Shown here: positions 27,114 to 42,619 of the stretch, piece after piece
How the letters are laid out: every line of letters begins with the position of its first letter
Position numbering within the stretch: position 1 is the stretch's first letter
Source of the DNA: Sphaerotilus uruguayifluvii
Lineage (GTDB): Bacteria > Pseudomonadota > Gammaproteobacteria > Burkholderiales > Burkholderiaceae_C
Assembly: GCF_013294065.1 (NCBI RefSeq)
Contig: NZ_JABSNM010000004.1
Span: 186,001 to 250,000 of the forward strand
Direction: 5' to 3'
DNA: 64,000 nucleotides
Translations under genes and position numbers: made by a program
Notes under the pieces: generated by a model
Database searches by the model: none
What the model saw: the letters and a program-made list of their open reading frames with translations, nothing else
Told to the model about the DNA's origin: nothing

Positions 27114-29357
27114 ATGATCGTCCCCCTTGTCCGCACCATGATCCGCTCCCGCGCTTCCCGCCGCTGCCCGACCCCGTCGAGCCCCGCTTCCCACTCGCGT
27201 CCGCACGCCCTTCTCGCGCTGAGCCCGCTGGCCCTCGCCCTGCTGGCGGCGCTGCCCGCGCCAGCGTCGGCCCAGGCCGCGGCCTCGTCGCAGGCCGAGC
27301 TCGATGCGGTCGTCGTGACCGGCTCGACCCGCGAGCGCCGGCTGCAGGACGTGCCCTACGCGATCACCGCGGTGGGCGAGGCGGCGCTGCGCGACAGCGG
27401 CCCGATGATCAACCTGTCGGAGTCGATGGCGCGCGTGCCCGGCCTGGTGGTGGCCAACCGCAACAACTACGCCCAGGACCTGCAGATCAGCAGCCGCGGC
27501 TTCGGCGCGCGCGCCGGCTTCGGCGTGCGCGGCCTGCGGCTGTACGCCGACGGCATTCCCGCGACCATGCCCGACGGCCAGGGCCAGGTGGCGCACTTCG
27601 ACCTCGCCGGCGCCGAGCGCGTCGAGGTGCTGCGCGGGCCGTTCTCGGCGCTGTACGGCAACGCCTCCGGCGGCGTGATCGCGCTGTTCTCGAAGCCGGT
27701 GCGCGAGCGCCAGTTCGAGGTCGGGCTGGATGCCGGCAGCGCCGGCCTGCGCCAGGCCCGCGTCGGCTTCGCCGCGCCGCTGGGCGAGGGGCTGGACCTC
27801 TCGGGCAACGTCTCCGACCTGTCGATCGACGGTTTCCGCCCGCACAGCGGCGCCGATCGCCGCCTGGCCAACCTGCGCCTGGGCTGGCAGGACGGCGCCG
27901 ACCGCGTCACCGTCGCGCTGAGCGACCAGGTGCAGAGCGCCGACGACCCGCTCGGCCTGACCCGCGCGCAGGTCGAGGCCGACCCGGACCAGACCGCCGC
28001 GGTCGCGCTGCAGTACGACACCCGCAAGTCCATCCGCCAGACCCAGCTCGGCACCGCCTGGACGCACCGCTTCGACGGCAGCGCCGGCGCGCTGAAGCAG
28101 ACCCGGGTGGCGGCCTACGCCGGCACGCGCGCGGTCACGCAGTACCAGGCGATCGCGCCGGCCACCCAGGCCGCGGCCCGCCACGGCGGCGGCCTGGTCG
28201 ACTTCGACCGCGGCTACGACGGCCTGGACGCCCGTGCGCAATGGCAGTGGCAGGCGCTGGACCTGACCGCCGGCGCCAGCCTGGAGCGGCAGAAGGACGC
28301 CCGCCGCGGCTACAACAACTACACCGGCACGGCCGCCGCCCCGACCGCCCTGGGCGTGCAGGGCACGCTGCGCCGCGACGAGACCGACCGCGCCGACACC
28401 CGCGAGGCCTACGCGCAGGCCGAATGGACGCTCGCACCCGACTGGCTGGCCAGCCTGGGCGTGCGCGGCGGCCGGGTGCGCATGGACGTCGACGACCACT
28501 ACCTGAGCAACGGCGACGACTCCGGCGAGCTGGCCTACCACTACGTCAACCCGGTCGCCGGCCTGCGCTGGCGCGCCAGCGAGGCCTGGACGCTGCACGC
28601 GGCGGTGGCGCGCGGCCACGAGTCGCCGACGCTGGGCGAGCTGGCCTACCGCCCCGACGGCGGCGCCGGCTTCAACACCGACCTGAAGGCGCAGAGCAGC
28701 CGCCAGATCGAGCTGGGCGCCAAGTGGCGCGTGCCGGGCCTGACGCTGGACGCGACGCTGTTCCGCATCGACACCGACGACGAGATCGGCGTGGCGACCA
28801 ACTCGGGCGGGCGCTCGTCCTTCCGCAACGTGGGCCGCACGCAGCGCTGGGGCGCCGAGCTGGGCAGCCGCTGGAACGTGCGCCCGGGACTGCGCGCGCA
28901 GATGGCGCTCACCGTGCTGCATGCGCGCTACGCCGACGGCTTCGTCACCTGCACCGGCGTGCCGTGCACGCTCACCGCGACGACCAACACCGCGACGGTG
29001 CCGGCGGGCAACCGCATCGCCGGCACGCAGCCGGCCTCGGCCTTCGCCGAGCTGGCCTGGATCGCGCCGTGGAGCGCCGACGGCGAGCTGGGGCTGGAGT
29101 GGCGCGCCCAGGGCCGCACCGCGGTCAACGACCTCAACAGCGACTTCGCCGGCGGCCACGCGCTCTTCAACCTGCGCTACAGCCACCGATGGACGGTGGA
29201 CGCCGACGGCACGCTGGAGCTGCTGGCGCGCATCGACAACGTCGCCGACCGCCGCGTGGTCGGCAGCGTGATCGTCAACGACGCCAACGGCCGCTACTTC
29301 GAGCCGGCCGCCGGCCGCACCGGCCTGGTGTCGCTGCGCTACCAGCGCCGCTTCTGA
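27114..29357 (+). CDS. pqqU: TonB-dependent outer-membrane receptor, PqqU/YncD-like
   Basis: 747 residues. A signal region (ALLALSPLALALLAALPAPASAQA) precedes a plug domain and a beta-barrel ending in Phe (YQRRF), as in outer-membrane proteins. The plug closely follows E. coli YncD: INLSESMARVPGLVVANRNN, YAQDLQISSRGFGARAGFGV, YADGIPATMPDGQGQ and GPFSALYGNASGGV. YncD, now named PqqU, imports pyrroloquinoline quinone. The barrel also keeps GYNNYTG, DDEIGVATNSGGR and VGSVIVNDANGRYFEPA. The next two genes are quinoprotein-associated and a PQQ dehydrogenase lies 11 kb on, which supports PQQ as the ligand. A later start is Met9 at 27138. Confidence 0.85.
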   Translation: MIVPLVRTMIRSRASRRCPTPSSPASHSRPHALLALSPLALALLAALPAPASAQAAASSQAELDAVVVTGSTRERRLQDVPYAITAVGEAALRDSGPMINLSESMARVPGLVVANRNNYAQDLQISSRGFGARAGFGVRGLRLYADGIPATMPDGQGQVAHFDLAGAERVEVLRGPFSALYGNASGGVIALFSKPVRERQFEVGLDAGSAGLRQARVGFAAPLGEGLDLSGNVSDLSIDGFRPHSGADRRLANLRLGWQDGADRVTVALSDQVQSADDPLGLTRAQVEADPDQTAAVALQYDTRKSIRQTQLGTAWTHRFDGSAGALKQTRVAAYAGTRAVTQYQAIAPATQAAARHGGGLVDFDRGYDGLDARAQWQWQALDLTAGASLERQKDARRGYNNYTGTAAAPTALGVQGTLRRDETDRADTREAYAQAEWTLAPDWLASLGVRGGRVRMDVDDHYLSNGDDSGELAYHYVNPVAGLRWRASEAWTLHAAVARGHESPTLGELAYRPDGGAGFNTDLKAQSSRQIELGAKWRVPGLTLDATLFRIDTDDEIGVATNSGGRSSFRNVGRTQRWGAELGSRWNVRPGLRAQMALTVLHARYADGFVTCTGVPCTLTATTNTATVPAGNRIAGTQPASAFAELAWIAPWSADGELGLEWRAQGRTAVNDLNSDFAGGHALFNLRYSHRWTVDADGTLELLARIDNVADRRVVGSVIVNDANGRYFEPAAGRTGLVSLRYQRRF

Positions 29358-29413
29358 ACCCCGGAGCCGCCCGCCGACACCGGACCCCTCGCGCCCAGCC
29401 CGGGAGACCCCAG

Positions 29414-30232
29414 ATGTTCCTCTCCTCGCGCCATCCTGCCCTGGCCTCCGCGGTGCTCGCCGCGGCGCTGGCCGCGCTGTCGGCCGTCGCCGGCACCGCC
29501 GCGGCCGACCTGTTCGAGGGCGACCCCTACCAGTCGCATCCCTGGCCGGACATCCGGCGCGAATACCTCGGCCAGGACGCGCGCACCGTCTTCGACGAGC
29601 GGGTGCAGGTGCGCGGGCCGGCCTTCGCCGAAGACCCGATGAACGTGCCGGTCACCGTGTCGGTGCGCGACCTGCCCGGCGTGGACCGCATCGTCGTGCT
29701 GGTCGACCGCAACCCGATCCGGCGGGTGCTGGAGTACCAGCCGATCAGCGCGCTGCCCAGCGTGTCCTTCCGCTTCAAGCTCGAGCAGGCCAGCCCGGTG
29801 CGTGCGGCGGCCCGCACCGCCGACGGCGTCTGGCACGTCGGCGGCACCTGGGTCGACTCGGCCGGCGGCGGCTGCACCGTGCCCGGCAGCACCCGCAAGG
29901 ACGGCAGCTGGACGCAGACGCTCGGCCTGGTCAGCGGCCGCGTCTTCGAGGCCTCGCCGGTGCCCGGCGCGGACAGCGCCGCCGGCAGCCGGCTGCGGCT
30001 GAAGATCATGCATCCGATGGACACCGGCCTGGTCGGCGGCATCCCGGCCTTCTACGTCAACCGCCTGAGCGTGCGCGACGACGGCGACCGCGAGCTGCTG
30101 CGGCTGCAGACCTACGAGCCGGTCAGCGAGAACCCGGTGTTCTCCTTCGACTTCCCGACGAGGCCGGCCGGGCAGCTGCGCATCGTCGGCACCGACAACA
30201 ACGGCAACCGCATCGACGCGCGGCTGGAGTGA
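29414..30232 (+). CDS. Quinoprotein dehydrogenase-associated SoxYZ-like carrier
   Basis: 272 residues with a signal peptide (LASAVLAAALAALSAVAGTAAA). The N-terminal half resembles SoxY and the C-terminal half SoxZ, fused in one chain. The SoxY-like carrier cysteine sits in SAGGGCTVPGS, which in this fusion is internal instead of at the C-terminus. SoxZ-like features are LRLKIMHPMDTGLV and PVFSFDFP. Such fusions are known next to PQQ alcohol dehydrogenases, where they are thought to carry a periplasmic intermediate or relay electrons; mechanism is not established. It follows the receptor gene by 56 bp and precedes the metallohydrolase gene by 2 bp. Confidence 0.85.
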   Translation: MFLSSRHPALASAVLAAALAALSAVAGTAAADLFEGDPYQSHPWPDIRREYLGQDARTVFDERVQVRGPAFAEDPMNVPVTVSVRDLPGVDRIVVLVDRNPIRRVLEYQPISALPSVSFRFKLEQASPVRAAARTADGVWHVGGTWVDSAGGGCTVPGSTRKDGSWTQTLGLVSGRVFEASPVPGADSAAGSRLRLKIMHPMDTGLVGGIPAFYVNRLSVRDDGDRELLRLQTYEPVSENPVFSFDFPTRPAGQLRIVGTDNNGNRIDARLE

Positions 30233-30234
30233 GC

Positions 30235-31272
30235 ATGAGGACCGTCCGGCAACTCCCGATCCGTTCCCCGCTGGCGGCGCTGCTGGCCGCCGCGCTGCTG
30301 GCCGGCGGCTTCGCGCCGCCGGCCGCGGCCGAGGCGCCGCAGGTCGACGTCGCCCGCCTCGACTACGGCCTGAAGGCGCGTGCGCTGGCCGATGGCGTCT
30401 GGGTGGTCGAGGGGGCGGTCGACGACTTCTCGATCGCCAACGGCTGCAACATCATCAACCTCGGCCTGATCGCCACCGCCGAGGGCACGCTGGTGGTCAA
30501 CACCGGCACCAGCCGGCTGCACGGCCAGCAGCTGCGCGCGCTGGCCGAGCACACCACCGGCCAGCGCGTCGCGCGCGTCATCCACCTGAACCTGCATCCG
30601 GACTATTTTCTCGGCAACCAGGGCTTCGCCGACGTGCCGCGCCTGGCCACGCCGACGACGCGCGCCGGCATCGCCCGCGAGGCCTCGGCCTACGAGAACA
30701 ACCTCTACCGGCTGTGCGGCGACTGGATGCGCGGCACCGAGGCGCTGGGGCCCGACGCCGACCTGCCGCTCGGCCCGGACGGTCGCGGCACGCTGACGCT
30801 GGGCGGACGCACCTTCGATCTCACCGAGCTGAGTGGCCACACCGACTCCGACCTGGTGCTGGTCGACCGGGCCAGCGGCGTGGCCTTCGTCGGCGGGCTG
30901 GTGTTCGTGCAGCGGGTGCCGACGACGCCGCACGCCCGGGTCGAGCGCTGGCTCCAGAGCCTGGACCGGCTGCAGGCGATGGGGCTGCGCACGCTGGTGC
31001 CCAGCCACGGCCCGGTGCAGGTCGGCCCCGAACGCGCGGCCGAGGGCATCGCGCAGACCCGGCGCTTCCTGCAGTGGATCGACCGCAGCTTCAGCGCCTG
31101 GGCGGCGCAGGGCTGGGACATGAACGAGGTGCTGCGCGCACCGGTGCCCGACGAGTTCCGCCAGTGGGCCGCCTTCCGCACCGAGTACGTGCGCAACGTC
31201 GCCCACCTCTACCCGGTCTACGAGCAGAAGGTGCTGGGCCAGGCCCGGCCTCAGGCGCGCGGCGTGCGGTAG
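30235..31272 (+). CDS. SoxH-like metallo-beta-lactamase-fold hydrolase, quinoprotein relay type
   Basis: 345 residues with a signal peptide (LAALLAAALLAGGFAPPAAAEA), so periplasmic. The metallo-beta-lactamase fold is recognisable from GTLVVNTG, HLNLHPDYFLGN, LSGHTDSDLVLVD and PSHGPVQ. The usual HxHxDH ligand set reads Asn119-x-His121-x-Asp123-Tyr124, and the bridging Asp expected in a GDLVF-like motif is Gly221 (FVGGLVF); His202 and His258 are kept. The metal site is therefore altered, unless this is normal for the subfamily. It follows the SoxYZ-like carrier gene by 2 bp, as in other quinoprotein clusters. The 3' end overlaps the convergent regulator gene by 22 bp. Confidence 0.82.
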   Translation: MRTVRQLPIRSPLAALLAAALLAGGFAPPAAAEAPQVDVARLDYGLKARALADGVWVVEGAVDDFSIANGCNIINLGLIATAEGTLVVNTGTSRLHGQQLRALAEHTTGQRVARVIHLNLHPDYFLGNQGFADVPRLATPTTRAGIAREASAYENNLYRLCGDWMRGTEALGPDADLPLGPDGRGTLTLGGRTFDLTELSGHTDSDLVLVDRASGVAFVGGLVFVQRVPTTPHARVERWLQSLDRLQAMGLRTLVPSHGPVQVGPERAAEGIAQTRRFLQWIDRSFSAWAAQGWDMNEVLRAPVPDEFRQWAAFRTEYVRNVAHLYPVYEQKVLGQARPQARGVR

Positions 31273-32360
31273 TGCCACCAGGGCAGCGCGCGGGTCAGCG
31301 ACAGCACCTCGCCGATGCGCTCGGCCGCGTGATAGCCGGGCAGGCGCTCGAGCTGCTCGCGCCAGCGCGGCCCCTGCAGCACCTGGCCGAGGCGCTGCAC
31401 CGCCGGGTGGTCGAGCGTCTCCTTCAGGCCGACGAGAAAGTAGTCCTCCTCGACCAGCGGCACGAAGTCCAGCCCGAAGGCCTGCGCCGCGGCCTCGATG
31501 CCGAGACCGGCGTCGCCCTGCCCTGACGCCACCGCCGCGGCCACCGCCAGATGGCTGTCCTCGGCGCCCTCGCTCCAGCCGGTGATCGTGGCCGGGTCCA
31601 GTCCGGCGCGCGCCAGCAGGTGGTCGGCCAGCAGCCGCGTGGCGGAGCCCGTCTGGCGATTGACATAGCGCGCCACACCGCCCGAGAGATCGCGCAGGCT
31701 GCGCAGCTCCAGCGGATTGCCGCGCGCCACCATCAGGCCCTGGCGACGCCGGCTGCAGCCGATCAGCTTGTGGCGGCCCGGCTTGAGCAGCGGCTTGAGC
31801 GCCTGCGAGAACAGCGGCGCGGCCTCGCCGAGCGCCGGCACATGGAAGCCGGCGACCAGGCAGCGCCCCTCGGCCAGGGAACGCAGCGCGTCCAGGCTGC
31901 CGGAGAACTTCAGCTCGATGTGCAGCCGCTCGTCCTGGCTGGCGAGCTCGCGCAGCCGCGCCAGCGCGATGTCGTGGCTGGCGTGGATGGTCAGCACCTG
32001 CTGCGTGCCGTCGAAGGCGTCGGCCAGCACCCGCTCGAGCTCGGCGCGCAGCGCCTCGATGTGCGGCGTCAGCCGGGTGCGGGCCTGGCGCTCGGCCCAC
32101 AGCAGCCGGTCGGCGAAGGGCGTCAGCCGCGCCGGCTGGCCCTGGGCCCAGGTGACCAGCGGCTCGCCCAGCGCCTCCTCCCACTGCTTCAGCGCGCCCC
32201 AGACATGGCGGTAGGAGGCGCCCAGGGAGCGCGCCGCGTGCTGGATCGAGCCGCATTCGTGCACCGCGCTGATCAGGTCGAACAGCGGGTTGCCGATGTC
32301 GGCGCCGCGCTGGTCAGGCGGGCCGAAGGTGTACTGGAGATGGATGCCGCGGGTCTTCAT
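31251..32360 (-). CDS. ModE-like winged-helix regulator with periplasmic-binding-protein-like domain
   Basis: 369 residues. The N-terminal ~100 residues are a LysR/ModE-type winged helix (LFDLISAVHECGSIQHAARS, ASYRHVWGALKQWEEALGEP). The rest is a substrate-binding-protein-like domain of the MolR/TupA type (LTIHASHDIALARLRELASQ, VNRQTGSATRLLADHLLARA, GQGDAGLGIEAAAQAFGLDF). This combination is used for molybdate/tungstate or cofactor sensing. It is the last gene of the minus-strand aor operon, 40 bp after the small unknown gene, and is therefore the best candidate regulator of tungstate uptake and AOR synthesis. Ligand is inferred from context. Confidence 0.8.
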   Translation of the reverse strand: MKTRGIHLQYTFGPPDQRGADIGNPLFDLISAVHECGSIQHAARSLGASYRHVWGALKQWEEALGEPLVTWAQGQPARLTPFADRLLWAERQARTRLTPHIEALRAELERVLADAFDGTQQVLTIHASHDIALARLRELASQDERLHIELKFSGSLDALRSLAEGRCLVAGFHVPALGEAAPLFSQALKPLLKPGRHKLIGCSRRRQGLMVARGNPLELRSLRDLSGGVARYVNRQTGSATRLLADHLLARAGLDPATITGWSEGAEDSHLAVAAAVASGQGDAGLGIEAAAQAFGLDFVPLVEEDYFLVGLKETLDHPAVQRLGQVLQGPRWREQLERLPGYHAAERIGEVLSLTRALPWWHYRTPRA

Positions 32361-32400
32361 GGGCCGCGACGATAGCGGAAAGCGCGACGCCCCCCGCGCC

Positions 32401-32703
32401 TCAGCCGCCGCCGCGCTGCATCCAGAGATCGAAACGGCACATGAAGTGCCGGCGCTCGGGCGCATCGACATCCGCGTCGAAGCGGAAGTCCACCGCCAGG
32501 CGGGGCAGGCGGATCAGCGCGATGCAGCGCGGCTCGAGCGCGCGCCAGCGGATCGTCAGCCCTCCCGGACCGATGCCCTCGACGCGCGCCTGGCCGGGCT
32601 GCAGCGCCAGCGCACGGCCGTCGACCGCGCCGGGCAGCCAGCCCAGCCACTCGGCTTCGGTGCAGCCCTGCTCGCGCGAGAAGGCGGCAGGAACGTCGTT
32701 CAT
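32401..32703 (-). CDS. Small uncharacterised protein of the aor operon
   Basis: 100 residues starting MNDVPAAFSREQGCTEAEWL. I recognise no family. It has a Trp-containing N-terminal segment, a central stretch rich in beta-strand-forming residues (VEGIGPGGLTIRWRALEPRC) and a C-terminal VDFRFDADVD...RHFMCRFDLWMQRGGG. No signal peptide. It lies 28 bp after the MoaD-like gene and 40 bp before the regulator gene, all on the same strand, so a role in AOR cofactor insertion or maturation is possible but unproven. The Gly-Gly-Gly end resembles ubiquitin-like carriers only superficially. Confidence 0.65.
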   Translation of the reverse strand: MNDVPAAFSREQGCTEAEWLGWLPGAVDGRALALQPGQARVEGIGPGGLTIRWRALEPRCIALIRLPRLAVDFRFDADVDAPERRHFMCRFDLWMQRGGG

Positions 32704-32731
32704 CCGGGACCGGGCTGCGGCATCGGCCGCG

Positions 32732-32986
32732 TCAGCCGCCGGCGATCGGCGGCCAGATCGCCAGCGCGTCGCCGTCGGCCAGCACGCGCGCGGCGCGCTG
32801 GTCGGCCGCGACATAGCTGCCGTTGACCAGAACCAGATGCACCAGCGCGGGCGGCAGCTGGAAGCGGTCGATGACCGCGGCCACCGTCGAGCCGTCCGGC
32901 ACCTCCAGATCGACGGCATTGCCCGGCGGGCGGTCGGCCGGCAGGTGCTCGGCCAGCATCGCGAAGAGCTTGAAGGTGATCCTCAT
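32732..32986 (-). CDS. MoaD/ThiS-family sulfur carrier
   Basis: 84 residues, the typical size. The beta-grasp pattern is present: ITFKLFAMLAEHLP, a central VPDGSTVAAVIDRF and a C-terminal DGDALAIWPPIAGG ending in Gly-Gly. The diglycine tail is adenylated and thiocarboxylated in MoaD to supply dithiolene sulfur for molybdopterin. Here it lies 7 bp after the FAD oxidoreductase gene in the aor operon, so it is probably a dedicated carrier for the tungstopterin of AOR. No cognate MoaE or MoeB gene is in the window. Confidence 0.88.
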   Translation of the reverse strand: MRITFKLFAMLAEHLPADRPPGNAVDLEVPDGSTVAAVIDRFQLPPALVHLVLVNGSYVAADQRAARVLADGDALAIWPPIAGG

Positions 32987-32993
32987 GCCGGCA

Positions 32994-34322
32994 TCATGCC
33001 TTGGCGCGAACCGCCCCGAAGTCGCCCTGGGCCTGCGCGCAGGCCAGATAGGCCTCCATCAGCAGCGTCGGATCCTCGAGCAGGCGGTCCTTCCACTCGC
33101 CCAGACGGACCTGCCCCTCGACCAGACCGCGCATCACGCCGACATGCTCGGTCCAGCCGATCGAGTTGCAGCCGACCAGCATGTCGCCGTCGAACTGCAG
33201 GCTCAGGTGCCGGCCTTCCTCGCGGTCGGTCAGCTCCACATGCTGGCCGCCGGGCACGCCGTCCCACTTGCCGAAGGACGCCGAGATCATGCCCAGCGTG
33301 TCGAGCACGTTGATCTGCGTGACGCCCTTGAGCGTGGCGTCGCGCCCGATCATGTTCATCGCGGCCACGCGCGCCTGCTCGGCCGCGTTGGGCTGGATCG
33401 CGCTGACGATGGTGCGACCGCTGACCTTGTCGAAGGCCTCGGCGCAGTCGCCCGCGGCGTAGATGCCCTCGACATTGGTCTGAAGCCGCTCGTCGGTCAG
33501 CACGCCGACCAGGCAGGTGATGCCGGAGTTCTCGAGGAAGCCGATGTTCGGGCGCACGCCGGTGGCGCTGATGACCAGGTCGGCGGGCAGATGCTCGCCG
33601 CTGGACAGGCGCACCGTCATCGGCGTGACCGGCACATGGTCCTCGATGCCGCCGGCCTCGGCCAGGCGGTCCATCAGGTCCGGCGCGCGGCGCTCGATCG
33701 CCTCGACGCGGGTGCTGGTGAACACCCGCACGCCCTTGGTCTCGCACCAGTCGCGGATCATGGTGCCGGCGGTCGGCCCCATCATGCGCGGCACCATCCG
33801 GTCGCCCATCTCGACCACGGTCAGCTCGACGCCGCGCTGCTGCAGCGCCTCCATGATGATGCAGCCGATGAAGCCGGCTCCCATCTGGATGACCTTGGCA
33901 CCCGGGCGCGCCAGCGCGGCGATCGCGCGGGCGTCCTTCAGCGTCCAGCACGGATGCACGCCGCGGCCGTGAATGCCGGGAATCGGCGGCGAGGCCGGCG
34001 ACGAGCCGGTGGCGATCAGCAGCCGGTCGAAGGCCAGCGTGCTGCCGTCGTCGAGCTCGACGCTGCGCGCCTGCACGTCGACGCGCTTGGCGCGACCGCG
34101 GCGCAGCGAGATGCCCAGCCGCTCGTAGTGGCCCTCGCCGTGGCGCAGGTGCGTGCCCTCCTCGCCGACCTTGCCGATCAGCAGGTAGGGAATCGCCATG
34201 CGCGAGTACGGCGCCTCCGGCTCGTCGCCGATGACGATGACCTCGTCATGCGGCGCGTGCTTTCGGATCGTCTCGGCCGCGATGACGCCGGACGGACCGG
34301 CCCCGAGGATCACGTGCCTCAT
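32994..34322 (-). CDS. aorC: FAD-dependent NAD(P)H oxidoreductase subunit of AOR
   Basis: 442 residues. The N-terminal FAD motif is HVILGAGPSGVIAAETIRKH; a second Rossmann motif KVIQMGAGFIGCIIMEAL binds NAD(P)H; IYAAGDCAEAFDKVSG closes the FAD site. It resembles the NirB-like/rubredoxin reductase family. In Aromatoleum the AOR complex consists of a polyferredoxin (AorA), a tungsten subunit (AorB) and such a flavoprotein (AorC) that couples to NAD+. The same order is seen here, with a 19 bp gap from the tungsten subunit gene, so the assignment is by motif plus context. Confidence 0.85.
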   Translation of the reverse strand: MRHVILGAGPSGVIAAETIRKHAPHDEVIVIGDEPEAPYSRMAIPYLLIGKVGEEGTHLRHGEGHYERLGISLRRGRAKRVDVQARSVELDDGSTLAFDRLLIATGSSPASPPIPGIHGRGVHPCWTLKDARAIAALARPGAKVIQMGAGFIGCIIMEALQQRGVELTVVEMGDRMVPRMMGPTAGTMIRDWCETKGVRVFTSTRVEAIERRAPDLMDRLAEAGGIEDHVPVTPMTVRLSSGEHLPADLVISATGVRPNIGFLENSGITCLVGVLTDERLQTNVEGIYAAGDCAEAFDKVSGRTIVSAIQPNAAEQARVAAMNMIGRDATLKGVTQINVLDTLGMISASFGKWDGVPGGQHVELTDREEGRHLSLQFDGDMLVGCNSIGWTEHVGVMRGLVEGQVRLGEWKDRLLEDPTLLMEAYLACAQAQGDFGAVRAKA

Positions 34323-34341
34323 CGTGTTGCGCCTCTCGTGC

Positions 34342-36189
34342 TCAGAGACCCAGGCGCTCGCGCGTCTCGGGCTTCAGGCGACCTTCCGCATCCCAGCCCC
34401 GGATCTCGTAGTACTTGGGCAGCATCTCCGGCAGCTTGTTGACCAGACCCTTGGCCGGGCCGGTCTGCGCGGGCTCTTCCAGCAGACGCTTGGGCAGCGT
34501 GTCGTCCTTGGCGGTGAAGCCGGCACGGTTGTTGAAGTCGCGCTCCATGTTCCAGATGCGCTCGCCGATCTGGTTCAGGTTCTCGAGCGTGAACTCCTCG
34601 CCGCAGGCGGCGGCCACCTGCGGCTGCACGTCGGCCAGCGTCCAGGCGAAGCTGGTGAAGATGCAGATGCCGGCGGCGTCGAAGGCGGCGGTCGCGTCCT
34701 GGAAGGCCATGACCAGTTCCGGCTTGCCGTCGGCGGTCAGCGGATCGGTCTTGACCGGGATGCCCAGCACTTCGGAGGCGATGGTGTACGAGCGCAGGTG
34801 GCAGGCACCGCGGTTGCTGGTGGCGTAGGTCAGGCCCATGCCCTGCACGCCGCGCGAGTCGTAGGCCGGGAATTCCTGGCCCTTGACGCTCATCGACAGG
34901 TCCGGGTGGCCGTACTTCCTGCACAGGCGGGCCGAGCCCTGGCCGATCTCGACGCCGAAGCCCTCGCCCTTGGCGGTGATCTCGGCGAAGTGGGCCAGCG
35001 CGCGCGCATCGCCGAACTTGGCGTCGATGCCCAGCTGCTCCTGGGTCAGCACGCCCATCTCGTAGAGCTCCATCACCGCGCCGATGGTGGCGCCGAAGGA
35101 GATCGGGTCCATGCCCTGCTCGTTGCACAGCACGTTGGCGTACTGCAGAGCCTCCAGGTCGTTGACGCCGTTGGCCGCGCCCAGCGCCCAGGCCGCTTCG
35201 TACTCCAGGCCGCCCGAGGCGCCCCAGTACTTCGGCTTGTTCTCGACCGTGAAGTGGGTCTTGTCGATCTTGGAGATGCGACCGCACGCGATGGTGCAGC
35301 CGAAGCAGGCCTGGTTGGTCACCAGGTGCTTCTTGCCGTCGGTCGCGCGCGGCGTGGCCATCGCCTCGGCGCCGATGTCCTTGGCGCCCTCGAACTGCAC
35401 GTCGCGGTGGTTGCGGGTCGGCAGCGCGCCGATCTCGTTGATGACGCTCATCAGCACCTGGGTGCCGTAGGTCGGCAGGCCCGCGCCGGTGACGGCGTTG
35501 TCGTGAAGGATCTTCTTCTTCTCGAAGGTGACCTTCATGAACTCCTTCGGGTTGGCGATGTTGCCCACGCCCTTGGTGCCGCGCACCGCGACGGCCTTCA
35601 GGTTCTTCGAGCCCATCACCGCGCCCACGCCCGAGCGGCCGGCCGCGCGGTGCAGGTCGTTGACGATGGCGGAGAACAGGACCTTGTTCTCGCCCGCCAG
35701 GCCGATGCAGGAGATGCGCAGCAGCGGATCCTGATGCGACTTCTTCAGCGTCTCCTCGGTCTCCCAGACGCTCTTGCCCCACAGGCCGGAGGCATCGCGC
35801 AGTTCGGCGACGTCGTCGCTGATGTAGAGGTAGACGGGCTTGGCCGAGGCGCCCTCGACGATCACCATGTCCCAGCCGGCGGCCTTGAGCTCCGAGCCCC
35901 AGTAGCCGCCCGAGTTCGAGCAGGCGATGGCGCCGGTCAGCGGGCCCTTGGTGATGACGGTGTAGCGCCCGCCCGTGGAAGCCATGGTGCCGGTCAGCGG
36001 ACCGGTGCACCAGATCATCTTGTTGTCGGGCGACAGCGGGTCGACGGTGGCATCCATCTCCTCGACCAGATACTTGGTGCCCAGGCCGCGCGAGCCCAGG
36101 TACTGCTTGGCCCAGTCCATGCGCAGCGGTTCGCTGGCGACGGTGCCGTTCGTGAGGTTGACGCGGAGGATCTTTCCTGCCCAAGACAT
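34342..36189 (-). CDS. aorB: Tungsten-containing aldehyde:ferredoxin oxidoreductase
   Basis: 615 residues, the family length. It oxidises aldehydes to carboxylic acids in the cytoplasm using a bis-pterin tungsten cofactor and one [4Fe-4S] cluster. The cluster ligands are visible as Cys295, Cys298 and Cys302 (ACFGCTIACG) with Cys509 (AAGICIFTSF). N-terminal family motifs are KILRVNLTNGTV, GSRGLGTKYLVEEM and SNSGGYWGSELKAAGWD; HRAAGRSGVGAVMGSKNLKA lies in the pterin-binding region. It is flanked by polyferredoxin and flavoprotein genes and by a tungstate ABC transporter, which makes tungsten rather than molybdenum likely. Confidence 0.95.
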   Translation of the reverse strand: MSWAGKILRVNLTNGTVASEPLRMDWAKQYLGSRGLGTKYLVEEMDATVDPLSPDNKMIWCTGPLTGTMASTGGRYTVITKGPLTGAIACSNSGGYWGSELKAAGWDMVIVEGASAKPVYLYISDDVAELRDASGLWGKSVWETEETLKKSHQDPLLRISCIGLAGENKVLFSAIVNDLHRAAGRSGVGAVMGSKNLKAVAVRGTKGVGNIANPKEFMKVTFEKKKILHDNAVTGAGLPTYGTQVLMSVINEIGALPTRNHRDVQFEGAKDIGAEAMATPRATDGKKHLVTNQACFGCTIACGRISKIDKTHFTVENKPKYWGASGGLEYEAAWALGAANGVNDLEALQYANVLCNEQGMDPISFGATIGAVMELYEMGVLTQEQLGIDAKFGDARALAHFAEITAKGEGFGVEIGQGSARLCRKYGHPDLSMSVKGQEFPAYDSRGVQGMGLTYATSNRGACHLRSYTIASEVLGIPVKTDPLTADGKPELVMAFQDATAAFDAAGICIFTSFAWTLADVQPQVAAACGEEFTLENLNQIGERIWNMERDFNNRAGFTAKDDTLPKRLLEEPAQTGPAKGLVNKLPEMLPKYYEIRGWDAEGRLKPETRERLGL

Positions 36190-36234
36190 GTGTGTGCTCC
36201 TAGTGCCGGGTGAGGCGGATGTTTCTGGACAGGA

Positions 36235-36708: not shown

Positions 36709-36736
36709 GACTGGTTCTCCGTGATCGGCCGATGTC

Positions 36737-36754
36737 TATGCAATCATCTGCATA
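36737..36754 (-). promoter_or_regulatory. Inverted repeat, candidate operator of the aor operon
   Basis: TATGCAATCATCTGCATA has perfect 6 bp arms (TATGCA / TGCATA) around a 6 bp spacer, located 29-46 bp before the aorA start where a repressor or activator would act. A related 18-mer is at 39277-39294 in the tup/moeA promoter region. Confidence 0.6.
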
Positions 36755-36772
36755 TCGATGCCGGCGAGGAAC

Positions 36773-36788
36773 CTAGGCTTAACCCTAG
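36773..36788 (-). promoter_or_regulatory. Second palindrome upstream of the aor operon
   Basis: CTAGGCTTAACCCTAG is a nearly perfect 16 bp palindrome (arms CTAGG / CCTAG, TTAA centre), 65-80 bp before the aorA start. It may be a second operator; no further copy was noticed. Confidence 0.4.
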
Positions 36789-36800
36789 AAATCACGCGGG

Positions 36801-36831
36801 AAAACGGCCACCCCGGACGCCTGCCCGGGGT
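36801..36831 (-). terminator. Probable terminator of the tup operon
   Basis: On the minus strand the stem ACCCCGG / CCGGGGT (36810-36831, 8 nt loop) is followed by GGCCGTTTT, about 45 bp after the tupA stop. The T-run is short and separated by a few bases, so efficiency is uncertain. Confidence 0.5.
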
Positions 36832-36877
36832 TCACCTATGTCCGGAGCCGCCAATGCTCCAGAGTGAGACAGACGCC

Positions 36878-37753
36878 TCAGCGCGGCGCGTTCGGGAAGA
36901 AGAGCTGCTCGCCGCCGACCTTGTAGGACGCGATCGAGGCCTGTCCGGCCGGCGAGGTCACCCAGTCGGCGAAGGCCTGGGCGGCAGCCTGCTTCACATG
37001 CGGGTGCCTGGCCGGATTGACCACCATCACGCCGTACTGGTTGAACAGCGCCTTGTCGCCTTCGACCAGAATGGTCAGATCGGCCCGGTTCCTGAAGCTC
37101 AGCCAGGTGCCGCGGTCGGTGAAGACATAGGCACCGGTGGAGGCGGCCATGTTCAGCGCCGGGCCCATGCCGCAGCCGCATTCCTTGTAGCCCGCGGGCC
37201 TGGGCGCACCCGGCGCCGCCAGATCGCTGCCGGCCTGGCGCCACAGGCGCAGCTCGGCCGCATGCGTGCCGCTCTTGTCGCCGCGCGAGATGAAGGCGGC
37301 GCCGGAGGCGCCCACCTTGCGCAGCGCCTCGGTGATGGTCGCGCCCTTGACCCTGGCCGGATCGGCGGCCGGGCCGACCAGAACGAAGTCGTTGTACATG
37401 ACCGGCACGCGCCTGAGTCCCCAGCCCTCGGCGACGAACTTCTCCTCGGCCACCTGGTCATGCACGAAGACGACGTCGGCGTCGCCGCGGCGCGCCATGT
37501 CCAGCGCCTGGCCGGTGCCGACGGCCACGACACGCACCTCGATGCCGCTGGCGGCCTTGAAGCTCGGCAGCAAGTGCGCGAACAGGCCCGACTGCTCGGT
37601 CGAGGTGGTCGAGGCCATGACGATCGACTTCGCCGCGTCCTGCGCGGCCGCGAGGCCCGGCAGCACCGCGGCCACGCACAGCACCGCGGCCGCCACCAGG
37701 CGGCGGCGCAGCGGCTTCATGCCCGGGCTCGGGCTGGAATTCAGGTGGTCCAT
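36878..37753 (-). CDS. tupA: Tungstate ABC transporter substrate-binding protein
   Basis: 291 residues with a signal peptide (LVAAAVLCVAAVLPGLAAAQ). The mature N-terminus MASTTSTEQSGLFAHLLP carries the TTSTxxSGL motif that separates TupA-type tungstate-binding proteins from ModA. VGTGQALDMARRGDADVVFVHD and FISRGDKSGTHAAELRLWR are further oxyanion-site segments. The start overlaps the tupC gene by 13 bp; Met12 at 37720 is an alternative start. It would capture tungstate in the periplasm for the AOR cofactor. Confidence 0.9.
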   Translation of the reverse strand: MDHLNSSPSPGMKPLRRRLVAAAVLCVAAVLPGLAAAQDAAKSIVMASTTSTEQSGLFAHLLPSFKAASGIEVRVVAVGTGQALDMARRGDADVVFVHDQVAEEKFVAEGWGLRRVPVMYNDFVLVGPAADPARVKGATITEALRKVGASGAAFISRGDKSGTHAAELRLWRQAGSDLAAPGAPRPAGYKECGCGMGPALNMAASTGAYVFTDRGTWLSFRNRADLTILVEGDKALFNQYGVMVVNPARHPHVKQAAAQAFADWVTSPAGQASIASYKVGGEQLFFPNAPR

Positions 37754-38487
37754 GGCAACTCTCCTTTGAGGAACTGGACGGCTTCGGGCGGCAGCGGATC
37801 GTCGGCCGGCGCCTCGAAGAAGCGGGCGGTCGGCCGGTCGGCGACCAGGCGGCCGCCTTCGAGGTAGAGCACCCGGGTGGCCAGGCGCTTGACCTGGCCG
37901 AGGTTGTGCGTGCTCATCACCAGCGTCAGGCCGGCCTGGGCGAACTCGGCGATCAGCGCCTCGACCTCGCGCCGGGCGCTGGGGTCGAGGCTGGCGGTGG
38001 GTTCGTCGAGAAACAGGATGTCGGGCTGCAGCGCCCAGGCCCGCGCCAGCGCCAGCCGCTGCTGCTGGCCGCCCGAGAGCGCACGCGCCGGCCGGTCGGC
38101 GCAGGACTGCAGGCCCACCCGCGCCAGCGCGTCGAGCGCGCGGGCGCGCCGCTCGTCGCGCGGCACCCGCCCGAGCCACAGCGCCAGCATCAGGTTGCGC
38201 CAGACCGACAGGTGCAGCAGAAAGGGCCGCTGGAACAGCATCGCCGCGCGCGGCAGCCGGTCGTCGGCGGGCAGCCGGTGCAGCTCGCGGCGGCCGCACG
38301 CCGGCACGATCAGCCCGTGCAGCAGCCGCAGCAGCGTCGTCTTGCCCGAGCCGTTGGCGCCGACCAGCGCGATGCGCTCGCCGCGGCGGATCTGCAGGTC
38401 GAGCGGCTGCAGCGCCTGCTGCGCGCCGAAACGCACCTGCGCTTGCTCGAGCGACAGCAGCAGTGGCGTCGGGGGCAAGGTCGTCAT
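37741..38487 (-). CDS. tupC: Tungstate ABC transporter ATP-binding protein
   Basis: 248 residues. ABC ATPase motifs are complete: Walker A VGANGSGKTT, Q-loop AMLFQRPF, signature ALSGGQQQRLALARA, Walker B ILFLDEPTASLD and the switch His in STHNLGQ. It powers the TupB permease. The gene overlaps tupB by 4 bp upstream and tupA by 13 bp downstream, giving the order tupB-tupC-tupA. Confidence 0.9.
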   Translation of the reverse strand: MTTLPPTPLLLSLEQAQVRFGAQQALQPLDLQIRRGERIALVGANGSGKTTLLRLLHGLIVPACGRRELHRLPADDRLPRAAMLFQRPFLLHLSVWRNLMLALWLGRVPRDERRARALDALARVGLQSCADRPARALSGGQQQRLALARAWALQPDILFLDEPTASLDPSARREVEALIAEFAQAGLTLVMSTHNLGQVKRLATRVLYLEGGRLVADRPTARFFEAPADDPLPPEAVQFLKGELPWTT

Positions 38488-39212
38488 GCCCAGGCCTCCT
38501 GGGCCGCGCCGGCGGGCTCGACGCTGCTGCGCCAGCGCACCAGCGCGATCAGCAGATGCAGGCTGCCGACCACGCCCAGCAGCACCAGCCCCAGGGCCAG
38601 CGCCAGCGGCAGGTCGCCCTTGCTGGTCTCCAGCGCGATGGCGGTGGTCATCACCCGGGTCGAGCCGGCGATGTTGCCGCCGACGATCATCACCGCGCCA
38701 ACCTCGGCGACCGCCCGGCCGAAGGCGGTCAGCACGATGGTCAGCGCCGCCACCCGCTGGTGCAGCAGCAGCAGCACGGCCGATGTCATCGGCCCGGCCC
38801 CGAGCGAGGCGAGCTGGTCGCCGCCCTCCCTCAGGCCGTCGCTGACCAGGCGGTGCGTCAGCGCGGCGATCAGCGGCACCACCAGGATGCCCTGCGCGAT
38901 CACCATCGCGGCCGGCGTGAACAGCAGGCCGAAGGCGCCCAGCGGCCCGGAGCGCGACAGCAGCAGATAGACCGTCAGGCCCACCACCACCGAGGGCAGC
39001 GCCAGCAGGGTGTTGAGCACGCCCAGCACCGCGCCACGCCCGGGAAAGGCGGCGACGGCCAGCCAGGCGCCGAGCAGCCCGCCGATCAGGATGCCCAGCG
39101 CGCTGGCGGTCGCGCTCACGCGCAGCGACAGCGCGACGATGTCGAGCAGCATCGGGTCGAGCGAGGAGATCAGGTGCCAGGCCAGGCCCAGGCTGTCGGC
39201 AAAGGTGTTCAT
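38484..39212 (-). CDS. tupB: Tungstate ABC transporter permease
   Basis: 242 residues from MNTFADSLG, with five to six hydrophobic helices. The cytoplasmic EAA-like loop that contacts the ATPase is visible in FGRAVAEVGAVMIVGGNIAG, a form typical of TupB/molybdate-type permeases. Preceding helices include VGLTVYLLLSRSGPLG. It is the first gene of the transporter operon, facing the divergent moeA gene across 161 bp. Confidence 0.9.
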   Translation of the reverse strand: MNTFADSLGLAWHLISSLDPMLLDIVALSLRVSATASALGILIGGLLGAWLAVAAFPGRGAVLGVLNTLLALPSVVVGLTVYLLLSRSGPLGAFGLLFTPAAMVIAQGILVVPLIAALTHRLVSDGLREGGDQLASLGAGPMTSAVLLLLHQRVAALTIVLTAFGRAVAEVGAVMIVGGNIAGSTRVMTTAIALETSKGDLPLALALGLVLLGVVGSLHLLIALVRWRSSVEPAGAAQEAWA

Positions 39213-39276
39213 GGGGTGAGCACGGGGCTCGCTGCAAACGGACGCGATTCTTGCCCGCGACAATCGTCGCTGACCA

Positions 39277-39294
39277 TATGTCGCTCACTGCATA
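39277..39294. promoter_or_regulatory. Inverted-repeat-like site in the tupB/moeA divergent promoter region
   Basis: TATGTCGCTCACTGCATA shares the outer TATG and CTGCATA bases, in the same 18 bp frame, with the perfect repeat in front of aorA. The arms here match at four of six positions. It lies 65 bp from the tupB start and 80 bp from the moeA start. Confidence 0.5.
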
Positions 39295-39373
39295 GGTCGT
39301 GATCGCGCGCCACCCGCCTATCATCGGTCGATCGCATTCCTGTCCTGCCGCGCCCGGACGCGGCCGCCTCACC

Positions 39374-40648
39374 ATGCCCGAACTCGGTCCCTCCCCCCTG
39401 ATGACCGGCGGCGACTCGCTCGACGTCGCCGCCGCCCGTGCCGCCATCGCCGCGGCGATCCGTCCGATCGACGGCCGCGAGACGCTGCCGCTGCGCCAGG
39501 CGCTCGGCCGCGTGCTGGCCGAGGACGTGATCTCGCCGATCGACGTGCCGGCCCATGACAACTCGGCGATGGACGGCTACGCCTTCGCCGGCAGCGCGCT
39601 GGTCGACGGCGCCGAGACGGTGCTGCGGGTGGCCGCCACCGTGCACGCCGGCGACGTGCCGACGATGACGACCGCGCCCGGCGACTGCGTGCGCATCATG
39701 ACCGGCGCGGTGATGCCGCCGGGCCTGGACACCGTGGTGCCGCAGGAGCTGTGCCGGCTCGAGGACGGCCGCATCCGCATCGCGCCCGGCACGCTGCGCG
39801 CCGGCGACAACCGCCGCCTGCGCGGCGAGGACCTGAGCCGCGGCCGCCCGGCGGTGGCCGCCGGCCGACGCCTGCGGCCGGCCGACCTGGGCCTGATCGC
39901 CTCGCTGGGCATCGCCGAGGTCGCGGTGGTGCGCCGGCTGCGGGTGGCGCTGTTCTCCACCGGCAACGAGCTGCGCACGCTCGGCCAGCCGCTGGACGCC
40001 GGCTGCATCTACGACAGCAACCGCTTCAGCCTGATGGGCGCGCTCGAGCGCCTGGACGTCGAGGTGATCGACCTCGGCCTGGTGCGCGACGACCCCGAGG
40101 CCCTGGCGGCCACGCTGGACGAGGCCATCGCGCGTGCCGACGTGGTGCTCACCAGCGGCGGCGTGAGCGTCGGCGACGCCGACTTCACCAAGGACCTGCT
40201 GGCCCGCCGCGGCGAGATCGCCTTCTGGAAGGTCGCGATGCGGCCCGGGCGGCCCTTCGCGTTCGGGCCGCTGCGCCGCGCCGAGCAGGCCGACGCGGCC
40301 TGGCTGTTCGCGCTGCCGGGCAATCCGGTGGCCGCGCTGGTGACCTTCTACGCCTTCGTGCGCGACGCGCTGCTGACGCTGGGCGGCGCCACGCCGCAGC
40401 CGCTGCCGGTGCTGCGCGCGCGCTGCACGACGCCCGTGCGCAAGCGCCCGGGCCGCACCGAGTTCCAGCGCGGCATCGTCTCGCCCGGCGCGGACGGCCG
40501 CTGGGAGGTGCGCCTGACCGGCACCCAGGGCGCCGGCGTGCTGCGCAGCATGAGCGAGGCCAACGCGCTGGTGGTGCTCGGCCACGCGCAGGGCTCGGTG
40601 GCCGCCGGCGACGAGGTCGAGGTCTGGCTGTTCGACGGTCTGGTCTGA
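39374..40648 (+). CDS. moeA: Molybdopterin molybdotransferase
   Basis: 424 residues from ATG at 39374. MoeA inserts molybdate, or tungstate, into adenylylated molybdopterin. Signature segments: VPAHDNSAMDGYAF near the N-terminus, VRIMTGAVMPPGLDTVVPQE, VALFSTGNEL, IYDSNRF, LTSGGVSVGDADF and LPGNPVAALVTFYAF. All four domains seem complete. Its place opposite the tungstate transporter and close to AOR suggests a metal insertase serving the tungsten enzyme, though a housekeeping role cannot be excluded. Confidence 0.93.
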   Translation: MPELGPSPLMTGGDSLDVAAARAAIAAAIRPIDGRETLPLRQALGRVLAEDVISPIDVPAHDNSAMDGYAFAGSALVDGAETVLRVAATVHAGDVPTMTTAPGDCVRIMTGAVMPPGLDTVVPQELCRLEDGRIRIAPGTLRAGDNRRLRGEDLSRGRPAVAAGRRLRPADLGLIASLGIAEVAVVRRLRVALFSTGNELRTLGQPLDAGCIYDSNRFSLMGALERLDVEVIDLGLVRDDPEALAATLDEAIARADVVLTSGGVSVGDADFTKDLLARRGEIAFWKVAMRPGRPFAFGPLRRAEQADAAWLFALPGNPVAALVTFYAFVRDALLTLGGATPQPLPVLRARCTTPVRKRPGRTEFQRGIVSPGADGRWEVRLTGTQGAGVLRSMSEANALVVLGHAQGSVAAGDEVEVWLFDGLV

Positions 40649-40795
40649 GTCCGCGGCGTACCGAGACAGCGCTGTGCGAGGCTGGAGCACGATATTCGCA
40701 ATTACCCTGTATCGCCGCCCGGCAGCCTGTCACAAAGACGGCCCGATCGGGGCTTGAGCTAGTACGTTCCCCAAGGTTTCCTCGACGGCGGCCGG

Positions 40796-40810
40796 TGGCA
40801 CATTTGTTGC
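40796..40810 (+). promoter_or_regulatory. Sigma-54 (RpoN) promoter of the PQQ alcohol dehydrogenase gene
   Basis: TGGCACATTTGTTGC matches the -24/-12 consensus TGGCAC-N5-TTGC, with exactly 10 bp between the GG and GC elements. Transcription would start near 40822, leaving a leader of about 58 nt before the ribosome site GAGGAG at 40867-40872. Expression would require an enhancer-binding activator, not encoded in this window. Confidence 0.82.
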
Positions 40811-40879
40811 CCGGGAAGCAACCCTGAACGGCACTTTCCAGCCGTTGTGACCACTGCCACCTCACTGAGGAGACCAACC

Positions 40880-42619
40880 ATGCAGAAGAAACTCTTGAGC
40901 CTGCTGGTGTGTGCCGGACTCGCGTCCATGGCCCACGCCGGGGTGACCGACAAGATGATCGACAACGACGCCGCCTCGACGGGCGACGTCCTGTCCTGGG
41001 GCATGGGCCCGCAAGGCCAGCGCTACTCGCCGCTGAAGAAGATCACCACCGCCAACGTCTCGAAGCTCGTCCCGGTGTGGTCGTTCTCGTTCGGTGGCGA
41101 GAAGCAGCGCGGCCAGGAATCGCAGCCGGTCGTCTACAACGGCAAGATGTTCGTGACCGGCTCGTACTCGCGCCTGTTCGCGCTCGACGCCAAGACCGGC
41201 AAGAAGCTGTGGAAGTACGAGCACCGTCTGCCCGACGGCATCATGCCGTGCTGCGACGTGATCAACCGCGGCGCCGCGCTGTATGACAACCTGGTCATCT
41301 TCATGACGCTCGACGCCCAGATCGTCGCGCTGAACCAGGACACCGGCGAGGTGGTCTGGAAGGAAAAGATCGACGACTACCACGCCGGCTACTCCGCCTC
41401 GGCGGCTCCGCTGATCGCGGGCGGCCTGCTGCTGACCGGCGTGTCGGGCGGCGAGTTCGGCATCGTCGGCCGCGTCGAGGCGCGCAACCCGAAGACCGGC
41501 GCGCTGGTCTGGGTCCGCCCGACCGTCGAAGGCCACATGGGCTACACCTACGACAAGGACGGCAACAAGACCGAGAACGGCGTCTCCGGCGAGCAGGGCA
41601 AGACCTGGCCGGGCGACCTGTGGAAGACCGGCGGCGCCTCCACCTGGCTGGGCGGCACCTTCGATCCGAAGACCGGTCTGGCCTACTTCGGCACCGGCAA
41701 CCCGGCCCCGTGGAACAGCCACCTGCGCAAGGGCGACAACCTCTTCTCGTGCTCGACCGTCGCCATCGACGTGAAGACCGGCAAGATCGTCTGGCACTAC
41801 CAGTCCACGCCGAACGACGGCTGGGACTTCGACGGTGTCAACGAGTTCGTGACCTATGACGCCGGCGGCGGCAAGATCCTCGGCGGCAAGGCCGACCGCA
41901 ACGGCTTCTTCTACGTCATCGACGCGAAGAACGGCAAGCTCGAGAACGCCTTCCCCTTCGTCAACAAGATCACCTGGGCCACCGGCATCGACCTGAAGAC
42001 GGGCCGCCCGAACTTCACGCCGGACGGCCGCCCGGGCGATCCGACCGAAGGCGCCGATGGCAAGAAGGGCAAGTCGGTCTTCACCGCCCCGTCCTTCCTG
42101 GGTGGCAAGAACCAGATGCCGATGGCGTACAGCCCGGAAACCAAGCTCTTCTACGTTCCGGCGAACGAGTGGGGCATGGAGATCTGGAACGAGCCGATCA
42201 CCTACAAGAAGGGTGCCGCCTACCTGGGCGCCGGCTTCACGATCAAGACGCTGGATGACGGCCCGATCGGCCACCTGCGCGCGGTCGACCCGAAGACCGG
42301 CAAGGTCGTCTGGGACGCGCCGAACAACGCTCCGCTGTGGGGCGGCGTGCTGACCACCGCCGGCAACCTGGTCTTCTGGGGCACCCCGGAAGGCTACCTG
42401 CAGGCGGCAGACGCCAAGACCGGCAAGATCGTCTGGAAGTTCCAGACCGGCTCCGGCGTCGTGGCGCCCCCGATCACCTGGGAAGACGGCGGCGAGCAGT
42501 ACATCGGCGTGGCGTCCGGCTGGGGCGGCGCGGTCCCGCTGTGGGGCGGCGACGTGGCCAAGAAGGTCAACTACCTCGAGCAGGGCGGCTCGATGTGGGT
42601 CTTCAAGCTCGCCAAGTGA
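40880..42619 (+). CDS. PQQ-dependent alcohol dehydrogenase, lanthanide type
   Basis: 579 residues with signal peptide ([18 protein letters not shown]). It is an eight-bladed propeller quinoprotein of the methanol/ethanol family, periplasmic, passing electrons to a cytochrome c. PQQ-site residues are visible: vicinal disulfide Cys124-Cys125, Glu192 (GGEFGI), Asn274 (GTGNPAPW), catalytic Asp316 and Arg340. Two residues after the catalytic Asp is Asp318 (GWDFDGVNE), the extra acidic ligand found in lanthanide-dependent XoxF/PedH enzymes and replaced in calcium MxaF/ExaA enzymes. No heme domain is fused and no cytochrome gene is adjacent. A sigma-54 promoter precedes it. XoxF versus PedH/ExaF subgroup is not resolved by eye. 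Confidence 0.92.

Follow-up and report, generated by a model that had tools for sequence, protein, structure and literature searches.

The DNA considered here is a stretch of 64,000 nucleotides from Sphaerotilus uruguayifluvii (contig NZ_JABSNM010000004.1, positions 186,001 to 250,000 of the forward strand), called the window in the following; coordinates refer to it. Between positions 27114 and 42619 it carries a self-contained module for a tungsten-dependent aldehyde oxidoreductase (AOR), located between the genes for a SoxH-like hydrolase and for an alcohol dehydrogenase (ADH) of the PedH type, dependent on pyrroloquinoline quinone (PQQ). Sequence comparisons indicate that the locus is a real, recurrent variant of the ped/exa-type quinoprotein clusters, whose two oxidative enzymes may function jointly. 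Features are listed by position, with strand, description and, after the semicolon, supporting evidence.

27114..29357, plus: PqqU-type TonB-dependent receptor (PQQ import); NF041535 549.7 bits, cut-off 1200
29414..30232, plus: SoxYZ fusion, quinoprotein-associated carrier; TIGR04557 226 bits, cut-off 140 passed
30229..31272, plus: SoxH-like zinc metallohydrolase, quinoprotein relay type 1; TIGR04558 369.6 bits, cut-off 300 passed
31251..32360, minus: regulator with ModE-type helix-turn-helix and periplasmic binding protein (PBP)-like domain, probably oxyanion-responsive; PF12727 178.9 bits, PF00126 40.4 bits
32401..32703, minus: small AorE-like protein ending in three glycines; frame recovered in 87 segments, AlphaFold2 model
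32732..32986, minus: MoaD/SAMP-like protein (AorD-like); PF02597 37.8 bits, cut-off 22.5 passed
32994..34322, minus: AorC, flavin (FAD)/nicotinamide (NAD) subunit; PF07992 172 bits, closest NCBIfam PadH, below its cut-off
34342..36189, minus: AorB, tungsten cofactor subunit; PF01314 and PF02730 over cut-off, closest structure 8c0z, 1049.7 bits
36235..36708, minus: AorA, ferredoxin-like 4Fe-4S subunit; 4Fe-4S families, PadI-like, below its cut-off
36737..36754, no strand assigned: palindrome TATGCA-N6-TGCATA, proposed tungstate operator of aorA; exact
36878..37753, minus: TupA tungstate-binding protein; NF041772 217.5 bits, below cut-off 400
37741..38487, minus: TupC ATPase, so named by position; PF00005 104.1 bits (generic ATP-binding cassette (ABC) ATPase)
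38484..39212, minus: TupB permease; NF038017 214.6 bits, over cut-off 100, NF041773 137.9 bits, below cut-off 320
39277..39294, no strand assigned: second palindrome copy, between tupB and moeA; two mismatches
39374..40648, plus: MoeA molybdotransferase (molybdenum/tungsten insertase); NF007960 539.2 bits, cut-off 440 passed
40796..40810, plus: sigma-54 promoter of the ADH, TGGCAC-N5-TTGC; exact, the sole exact copy in the window
40880..42619, plus: PedH/ExaF-type PQQ-dependent ADH with lanthanide aspartate; TIGR03075 740.3 bits, over cut-off

Genes of the locus and of the host genome

The receptor, SoxYZ and SoxH genes lie on the plus strand. They are followed by a minus-strand block, running from the regulator through the AorE-like and MoaD-like proteins, AorC, AorB, AorA, TupA and TupC to TupB, and then, again on the plus strand, by MoeA and the ADH. 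A preliminary description, made from the sequence alone, had placed a PqqU-like receptor, a SoxYZ-like carrier and a SoxH-like hydrolase on one side of a tungsten module (regulator, MoaD-like protein, AorABC, TupABC, MoeA) and a PQQ dehydrogenase with a lanthanide signature on the other: all these families are present where it located them. Its gene list overlooked one member of the aor operon, at 32401-32703 on the minus strand, and two details are corrected: receptor and SoxYZ, read in two different frames, are distinct genes, and the regulator more likely starts near 32360.

The structures closest to the ADH are 6zcv/6zcw (824.7 bits), the former presumably PedH of Pseudomonas putida; 1flg, which we take to be the calcium-type ExaA, scores 668.8 bits, and methanol dehydrogenases 350.5 bits or less. 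Where 1flg reads WDFSGNNE, the ADH reads WDFDGVNE: the additional aspartate, two residues after the catalytic one, is presumably the lanthanide mark of the PedH/ExaF type. WD[FY]DG[VA]NE is found in all 44 close copies in the fetched segments, a number including the window and some duplicates; in all 8 paralogues of 51-52% identity a serine takes the place of this aspartate. With the aspartate present, and PedH closer than ExaA, XoxF or MxaF, the enzyme is classified as PedH-type.

In the tungsten module AorA, AorB and AorC occur together, and AorB is closest to 8c0z, which we take to be the AOR of Aromatoleum aromaticum, as expected for three-subunit bacterial enzymes of the AORAa type. Accessory genes comparable to aorD and aorE are also present: one is MoaD-like, the other encodes, after moaD, a protein of 100 residues ending in three glycines. 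Of the 87 segments where the frame of the latter was recovered, 85 show the terminal glycine triplet and 2 stop short at the end of the sequence; in an alignment of 58 copies, the final three glycines do not vary. The copy of a relative has no Pfam match. The best fold match of the AlphaFold2 model (predicted local distance difference test score, pLDDT, 93.8) is the MoaD-related 1v8c from Thermus thermophilus (E 6.7e-4, template modelling score 0.55 by query length). The aorE product of A. aromaticum is described, in the available passages, as resembling MoaD; the triglycine protein probably corresponds to it and is a candidate factor for maturation of the tungsten cofactor. The regulator, a candidate for the tungstate-responsive ModE/TunR type, scores 41.4 bits against the ModE model TIGR00637, under its cut-off of 98.5, and has a weak match in PDB to a molybdenum-binding repressor (E 0.0035). 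As a whole, the module resembles the AOR of A. aromaticum EbN1 (AorABC, aorD, aorE) in subunit make-up, MoaD-like operon genes and nearness of AorB to 8c0z; it differs by including tup genes, moeA and a regulator and by its position inside a quinoprotein locus.

The best PDB match of the receptor is Escherichia coli YncD/PqqU (6v81, 452.5 bits; 9c4o, 451.6 bits). The published PQQ-contact signature of PqqU (an aromatic residue at 99, R304, R365) is found, in an alignment read by hand, as F, R, R, with equivalents of K274 and R536. Since the score is below the NCBIfam PqqU equivalog cut-off, the receptor is named PqqU-type only. Besides falling far under this cut-off, it differs from E. coli PqqU by its location beside SoxYZ-SoxH and by belonging to a host that encodes PQQ synthesis genes.

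The host genome (G000; 4.89 Mb, 48 contigs, indicated by "C") carries pqqE and pqqB on C10. PQQ uptake need not, therefore, be obligatory, and uptake in place of synthesis was rejected as an explanation of the receptor. A XoxF-like enzyme is encoded on C3, and an ExaC/PedI-like NAD-dependent aldehyde dehydrogenase (ALDH), 82% identical to the query from a relative, on C6. C13 carries PedF, a PedG-like protein, a sigma-54 activator and PQQ-associated ABC genes; no AOR is present in the 16 kb read around this PedF/PedG-like cluster. This region (C13:90001-106000, L168) is a second quinoprotein-related cluster, including a PqqB-like paralogue, and a homologous cluster adjoins the AOR in some relatives. 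A PF01011 profile search of the host gave four matches; two of these fall in the window ADH, so that PQQ dehydrogenases number three. An ADH search at E 1e-150 returned the window copy alone, though the same search finds calcium-type paralogues in relatives. AorB is 99% identical to that of Sphaerotilus natans and 98% to that of S. sulfidivorans, both featuring the same arrangement.

According to the available passages on the P. putida ped cluster (PMC12997753), PedF, PedG, SoxYZ, SoxH, PedH and the ALDH PedI are joined there. The SoxYZ, SoxH and PedH components of P. putida KT2440 belong to the same families as those described here, and in some relatives of the host pedF and a pedG-like gene adjoin the AOR. 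PedI lies beside PedH in P. putida, while in the host the tungsten module is found between SoxH and the ADH. In the host, pedF and the pedG-like gene are on C13 and not beside the ADH, and the locus is therefore called ped/exa-type and not ped cluster.

Outside the locus, at 24894-26156 and upstream of it, genes for GTP cyclohydrolase I and for a BLUF blue-light sensor are found.

Recurrent linkage of AOR and quinoprotein genes in Burkholderiales

Linkage was evaluated in tool-drawn genome samples, indicated by "G" numbers. AorB is present in 70 of the 250 genomes of the family sample. The ADH search (E 1e-150) was positive in 65; in 56 of these the identity of a copy, partial in a few cases, reaches 68% or more. 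A 399-genome sample of the order contributed 8 further genomes, belonging to other families, which led to 37 genomes, from 26 genera, with both AorB and ADH; contig breaks in draft genomes were counted as unlinked. Apparent duplicates across the two collections (L036/G248, L039/G059, L056/G076, L029/G246, L081/G210, L032/G193, perhaps others) remain in the counts made on segments, namely those of AorB loci, lanthanide aspartate, sigma-54 sites, SoxH-ADH pairs, AorE-like frames and pedG-like upstream genes.

AorB and ADH lie within 10 kb of each other in 5 of the 37 genomes (3 genera), within 15 kb in 9 (7 of the 26 genera) and within 50 kb in 12 (10 genera), where random placement would give 0.18, 0.27 and 0.9, respectively. 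G252, linked within 15 kb, belongs to another family, and G626, linked within 50 kb, to a third. The preliminary description had proposed neighbourhood comparison as a check, absence of conserved linkage, together with absence of co-expression, counting against it; the linkage recurs, and a chance feature of one genome is ruled out. In the family sample, both genes are present in 29 genomes, AorB alone in 41, ADH alone in 27 and neither in 153 (odds ratio 4.0, uncorrected for relatedness).

Both AorB and pqqB, over the model cut-off, are present in 37 genomes, 23 of the family sample and 14 others. The two genes are no more than 20 kb apart in 10 of these: G060, G172, G114, G137, G081, G185, G252, G297, G340 and G576, from 7 genera. 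Genes initially labelled PqqB (c8) in G059, G246, G168, G091 and G193 are paralogues (28-39% identity), the pqqB model finding pqqB elsewhere, and are therefore not counted. Such paralogues adjoin a sigma-54 activator in quinoprotein clusters at L109, L110, L113, L150 and L161. In G297 and G340, of a further family, the distance from AorB to a different quinoprotein, of 38-39% identity, is 15-18 kb; at these loci (L128-L131), where the identity is given as 37-39% and the motif reads WDYDGVNE, pqq genes and SoxYZ/SoxH-like genes are also near the AOR.

Neighbours of AorB were labelled on representative genes, either by models over cut-off (PqqB, PqqC, PqqE, PedF, PedC-type permease, PQQ_ABC_bind, PQQ_ABC_repeats) or by Pfam (ALDH, histidine kinase, response regulator, sigma-54 activator); the PedG label is based on position beside PedF and on a solute-binding domain. 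At least one core quinoprotein gene is found at 25 of the 80 named AorB loci, flanks being partly cut, and at least two at 18; for loci with full flanks (9-10 kb) the numbers are 19 and 13 out of 45. Segments with 2.5 kb or more upstream of aorA number 92; in 21 of them a pedG-like gene precedes aorA on its strand, at 151-279 bp in 16 and at 1.5-1.8 kb in 5. Most of these 21 segments also carry pedF (15) and a divergent sigma-54 activator (20).

The position of the module in the window may be compared with that of the SoxH and ADH genes elsewhere. Of 24 SoxH-ADH pairs, 14 are contiguous on the same strand (188-421 bp) and 4 are at 1.1-2.4 kb; the remaining 6 are split by the tungsten module. 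Five of these are of Sphaerotilus type (the host, G058, S. natans, S. sulfidivorans, S. mobilis); the sixth is a groundwater metagenome-assembled genome (L062), whose module has no MoeA. In G170, of the same genus and with no AorB match, SoxH and ADH are contiguous. The leader of the window ADH (40713-40882) aligns with the contiguous SoxH-ADH spacer of G011 with a score of 78, against a maximum of 42 and a mean of 25 for shuffled G170 spacers; spacers of four other genomes score 32-51. The G170 spacer itself matches the window at just 24 bases (40670-40693), with a score of 36, inside the shuffled range. In the simplest reading, which infers both the direction of change and the exact edges, the tungsten module would have been inserted into an older SoxH-ADH unit.

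An AorB tree was built from 65 of the 100 offered segments, after removal of short or identical rows and of those unlinked rows whose flanks are cut; owing to this selection, the share of linked rows in it does not represent a frequency. The tree requires 14 changes of linked state, at least 8 of them forced by well-supported branches, while shuffled linkage labels give a mean of 21 changes and, in 0 of 500 cases, as few as 14. Linkage, therefore, follows ancestry, but has been gained or lost repeatedly.

ADH and AOR genes carry distinct promoter signals

Near matches to the sigma-54 site are at chance level in the window as a whole (4, with 4.31 expected), so that the evidence for this site is its conservation. 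Upstream of the ADH it is exact in 30 of 43 cases and within one mismatch in 41, against a background of 0.35% exact and 2.0% within one mismatch in random stretches, which were drawn from the loci under study, real sites included. Exact sites and sites within one mismatch number, respectively, 9 and 15 out of 27 for pedF, 1 and 7 out of 21 for pqqB, 1 and 5 out of 12 for ALDH, and 2 and 2 out of 23 for SoxYZ.

The palindrome is carried by aorA and tupB instead. Identical upstream sequences being excluded, it is exact upstream of aorA in 24 of 96 cases and within two mismatches in 70; upstream of tupB, the numbers are 10 and 35 out of 38. In 1500 random stretches, likewise drawn from these loci with their real sites, 13 copies are exact and 35 are within two mismatches. 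None is exact upstream of aorA when the spacing is changed to 4, 5, 7 or 8. In the window, the total within three mismatches is at chance level (5, with 4.89 expected). At L061 and L062 a copy with two mismatches lies between tupB and the divergent ADH. The palindrome is a putative tungstate operator, which the linked regulator may read.

Because the two signals are distinct, ADH and AOR look switched differently. An operator shared by the two was looked for, and none was found in the window.

Possible role of the AOR and alternative explanations

The preliminary description had proposed that alcohols are oxidized to aldehydes in the periplasm and aldehydes to acids in the cytoplasm. In the form that we favor, the PQQ/lanthanide ADH would oxidize alcohols in the periplasm, under sigma-54 control, and the resulting aldehydes would enter the cytoplasm; there, when tungstate is available, the AOR would convert them into acids with NAD+, either in parallel with the ExaC/PedI-like NAD-ALDH encoded elsewhere or in its stead. 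We infer this action in series, and consider it, on balance, a probable role for a ped/exa-type locus with a self-contained AOR module between SoxH and the PedH-type ADH. It is partly sustained by a linkage that recurs across genera beyond chance and by the quinoprotein accessory genes adjoining the AOR in some relatives. A more specific version is possible, if somewhat doubtful: the pathway would be gated by metals, a lanthanide selecting the quinoprotein that makes the aldehyde and tungstate selecting the AOR versus the ExaC/PedI-like ALDH, the module having been inserted as a unit into a SoxYZ-SoxH-pedH operon.

A number of observations weigh against a joint role. Of the 37 genomes with both genes, 28 are not linked within 15 kb, some of them through separate contigs; in the family sample, 41 of 70 AorB genomes do not have this ADH, and 27 of 56 ADH genomes do not have AorB. 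The promoter signals are separate: before aorA the sigma-54 site is not above background (0 of 105 exact, 3 within one mismatch), and upstream of the ADH the palindrome is found in 0 of 41 cases within one mismatch and in 2 within two. Finally, among the 63 genomes examined for ALDH (the 56 family genomes whose ADH reaches 68% identity, plus 7 of the 8 others, without G279), orthologues are present in 57, the host included. They are kept in 25 of the 29 family genomes where AorB and ADH occur together; of 7 AorB genomes examined from outside the family, 2 (G252, G340) have the ALDH within 5 kb of the ADH. A simple replacement of the NAD-ALDH by the AOR is thus ruled out. In the family sample, ADH and ALDH are at most 5 kb apart in 8 of the 27 genomes that have no AorB and in 1 of the 29 that have it (Fisher P 0.010), and at most 10 kb apart in 10 and 3, respectively (P 0.027), relatedness being uncorrected; this may be seen as a hint that the AOR takes the place of the ALDH in the cluster.

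Separate promoter signals would also be expected if the AOR were an independent, tungsten-regulated enzyme of aldehyde detoxification or of an amino-acid pathway, kept or re-formed in a shared redox/catabolic neighbourhood with no substrate in common with the ADH. The 26 of 45 full-flank AorB loci where core quinoprotein genes are missing, which count against joint action, agree with this explanation. The linkage, however, is found in several genera with different gene orders, with at least 8 forced changes on the AorB tree, and recurrence with one gene set is not easily explained by a generic neighbourhood; we regard an independent AOR as rather unlikely. That the enzyme runs chiefly backwards or on hydrogen, serving as an acid reductase or a hydrogenase-like electron valve, seems very improbable: hydrogen-driven reduction of benzoate and NAD+ is reported for the A. 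aromaticum enzyme in the passages available, but reduced viologen with benzoate gave no benzaldehyde in an earlier study, also available in part, and the neighbours of the AOR are alcohol-oxidation genes.

The partner of the AOR might also be a XoxF enzyme, the AOR disposing of the formaldehyde formed from methanol, and not the PedH-type ADH. The host encodes a XoxF-like enzyme, and growth of some Sphaerotilus strains on methanol is reported in the available passages. For Methyloversatilis, a cited prediction is that a tungsten-dependent aldehyde dehydrogenase oxidizes formaldehyde from methanol or methylamine oxidation. As far as the consulted parts of that study go (PMC5023235), a tungsten AOR is listed in Methyloversatilis universalis FAM5 along with xoxJ3, xoxG3, xoxF3 and mdh2, nearness being derived from the locus tags of a table; on methanol, the level of its transcript exceeds that on methylamine 2.62-fold (q 0.17). 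Unlike the case described here, the proposal concerns one-carbon compounds, and a module between SoxH and ADH is not described in those parts. The XoxF of the host, moreover, is on another contig, the recurrent neighbours of the AOR are PedH-type ADH or ped/pqq genes, and 'tungst' is absent from the main text of the Sphaerotilus methanol paper: a XoxF partner appears improbable.

The ADH-AOR arrangement is described nowhere in the open-licence passages available from PMC12124388, PMC5023235, PMC6544822 and PMC6417678. The term 'PQQ' does not occur in the main text of a 2026 classification of tungsten oxidoreductases, of a 2025 review of tungsten enzymes and of the 2019 paper on the A. aromaticum AOR, nor does 'tungst' in the ped-cluster review (PMC12997753). 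According to the consulted part of the 2026 classification, only 5 of 92 clades of tungsten oxidoreductases contain a member whose role is defined.

Few tungsten oxidoreductases have an assigned physiological role, and the recurrent presence of a tungsten AOR in or beside quinoprotein clusters of Burkholderiales provides a concrete role, which can be tested in cultured genera such as Sphaerotilus, Leptothrix, Ideonella, Azohydromonas and Piscinibacter. It hints at a combined use of tungsten and lanthanides in the oxidation of alcohols, and at the possibility that two rare-metal enzymes share one pathway.

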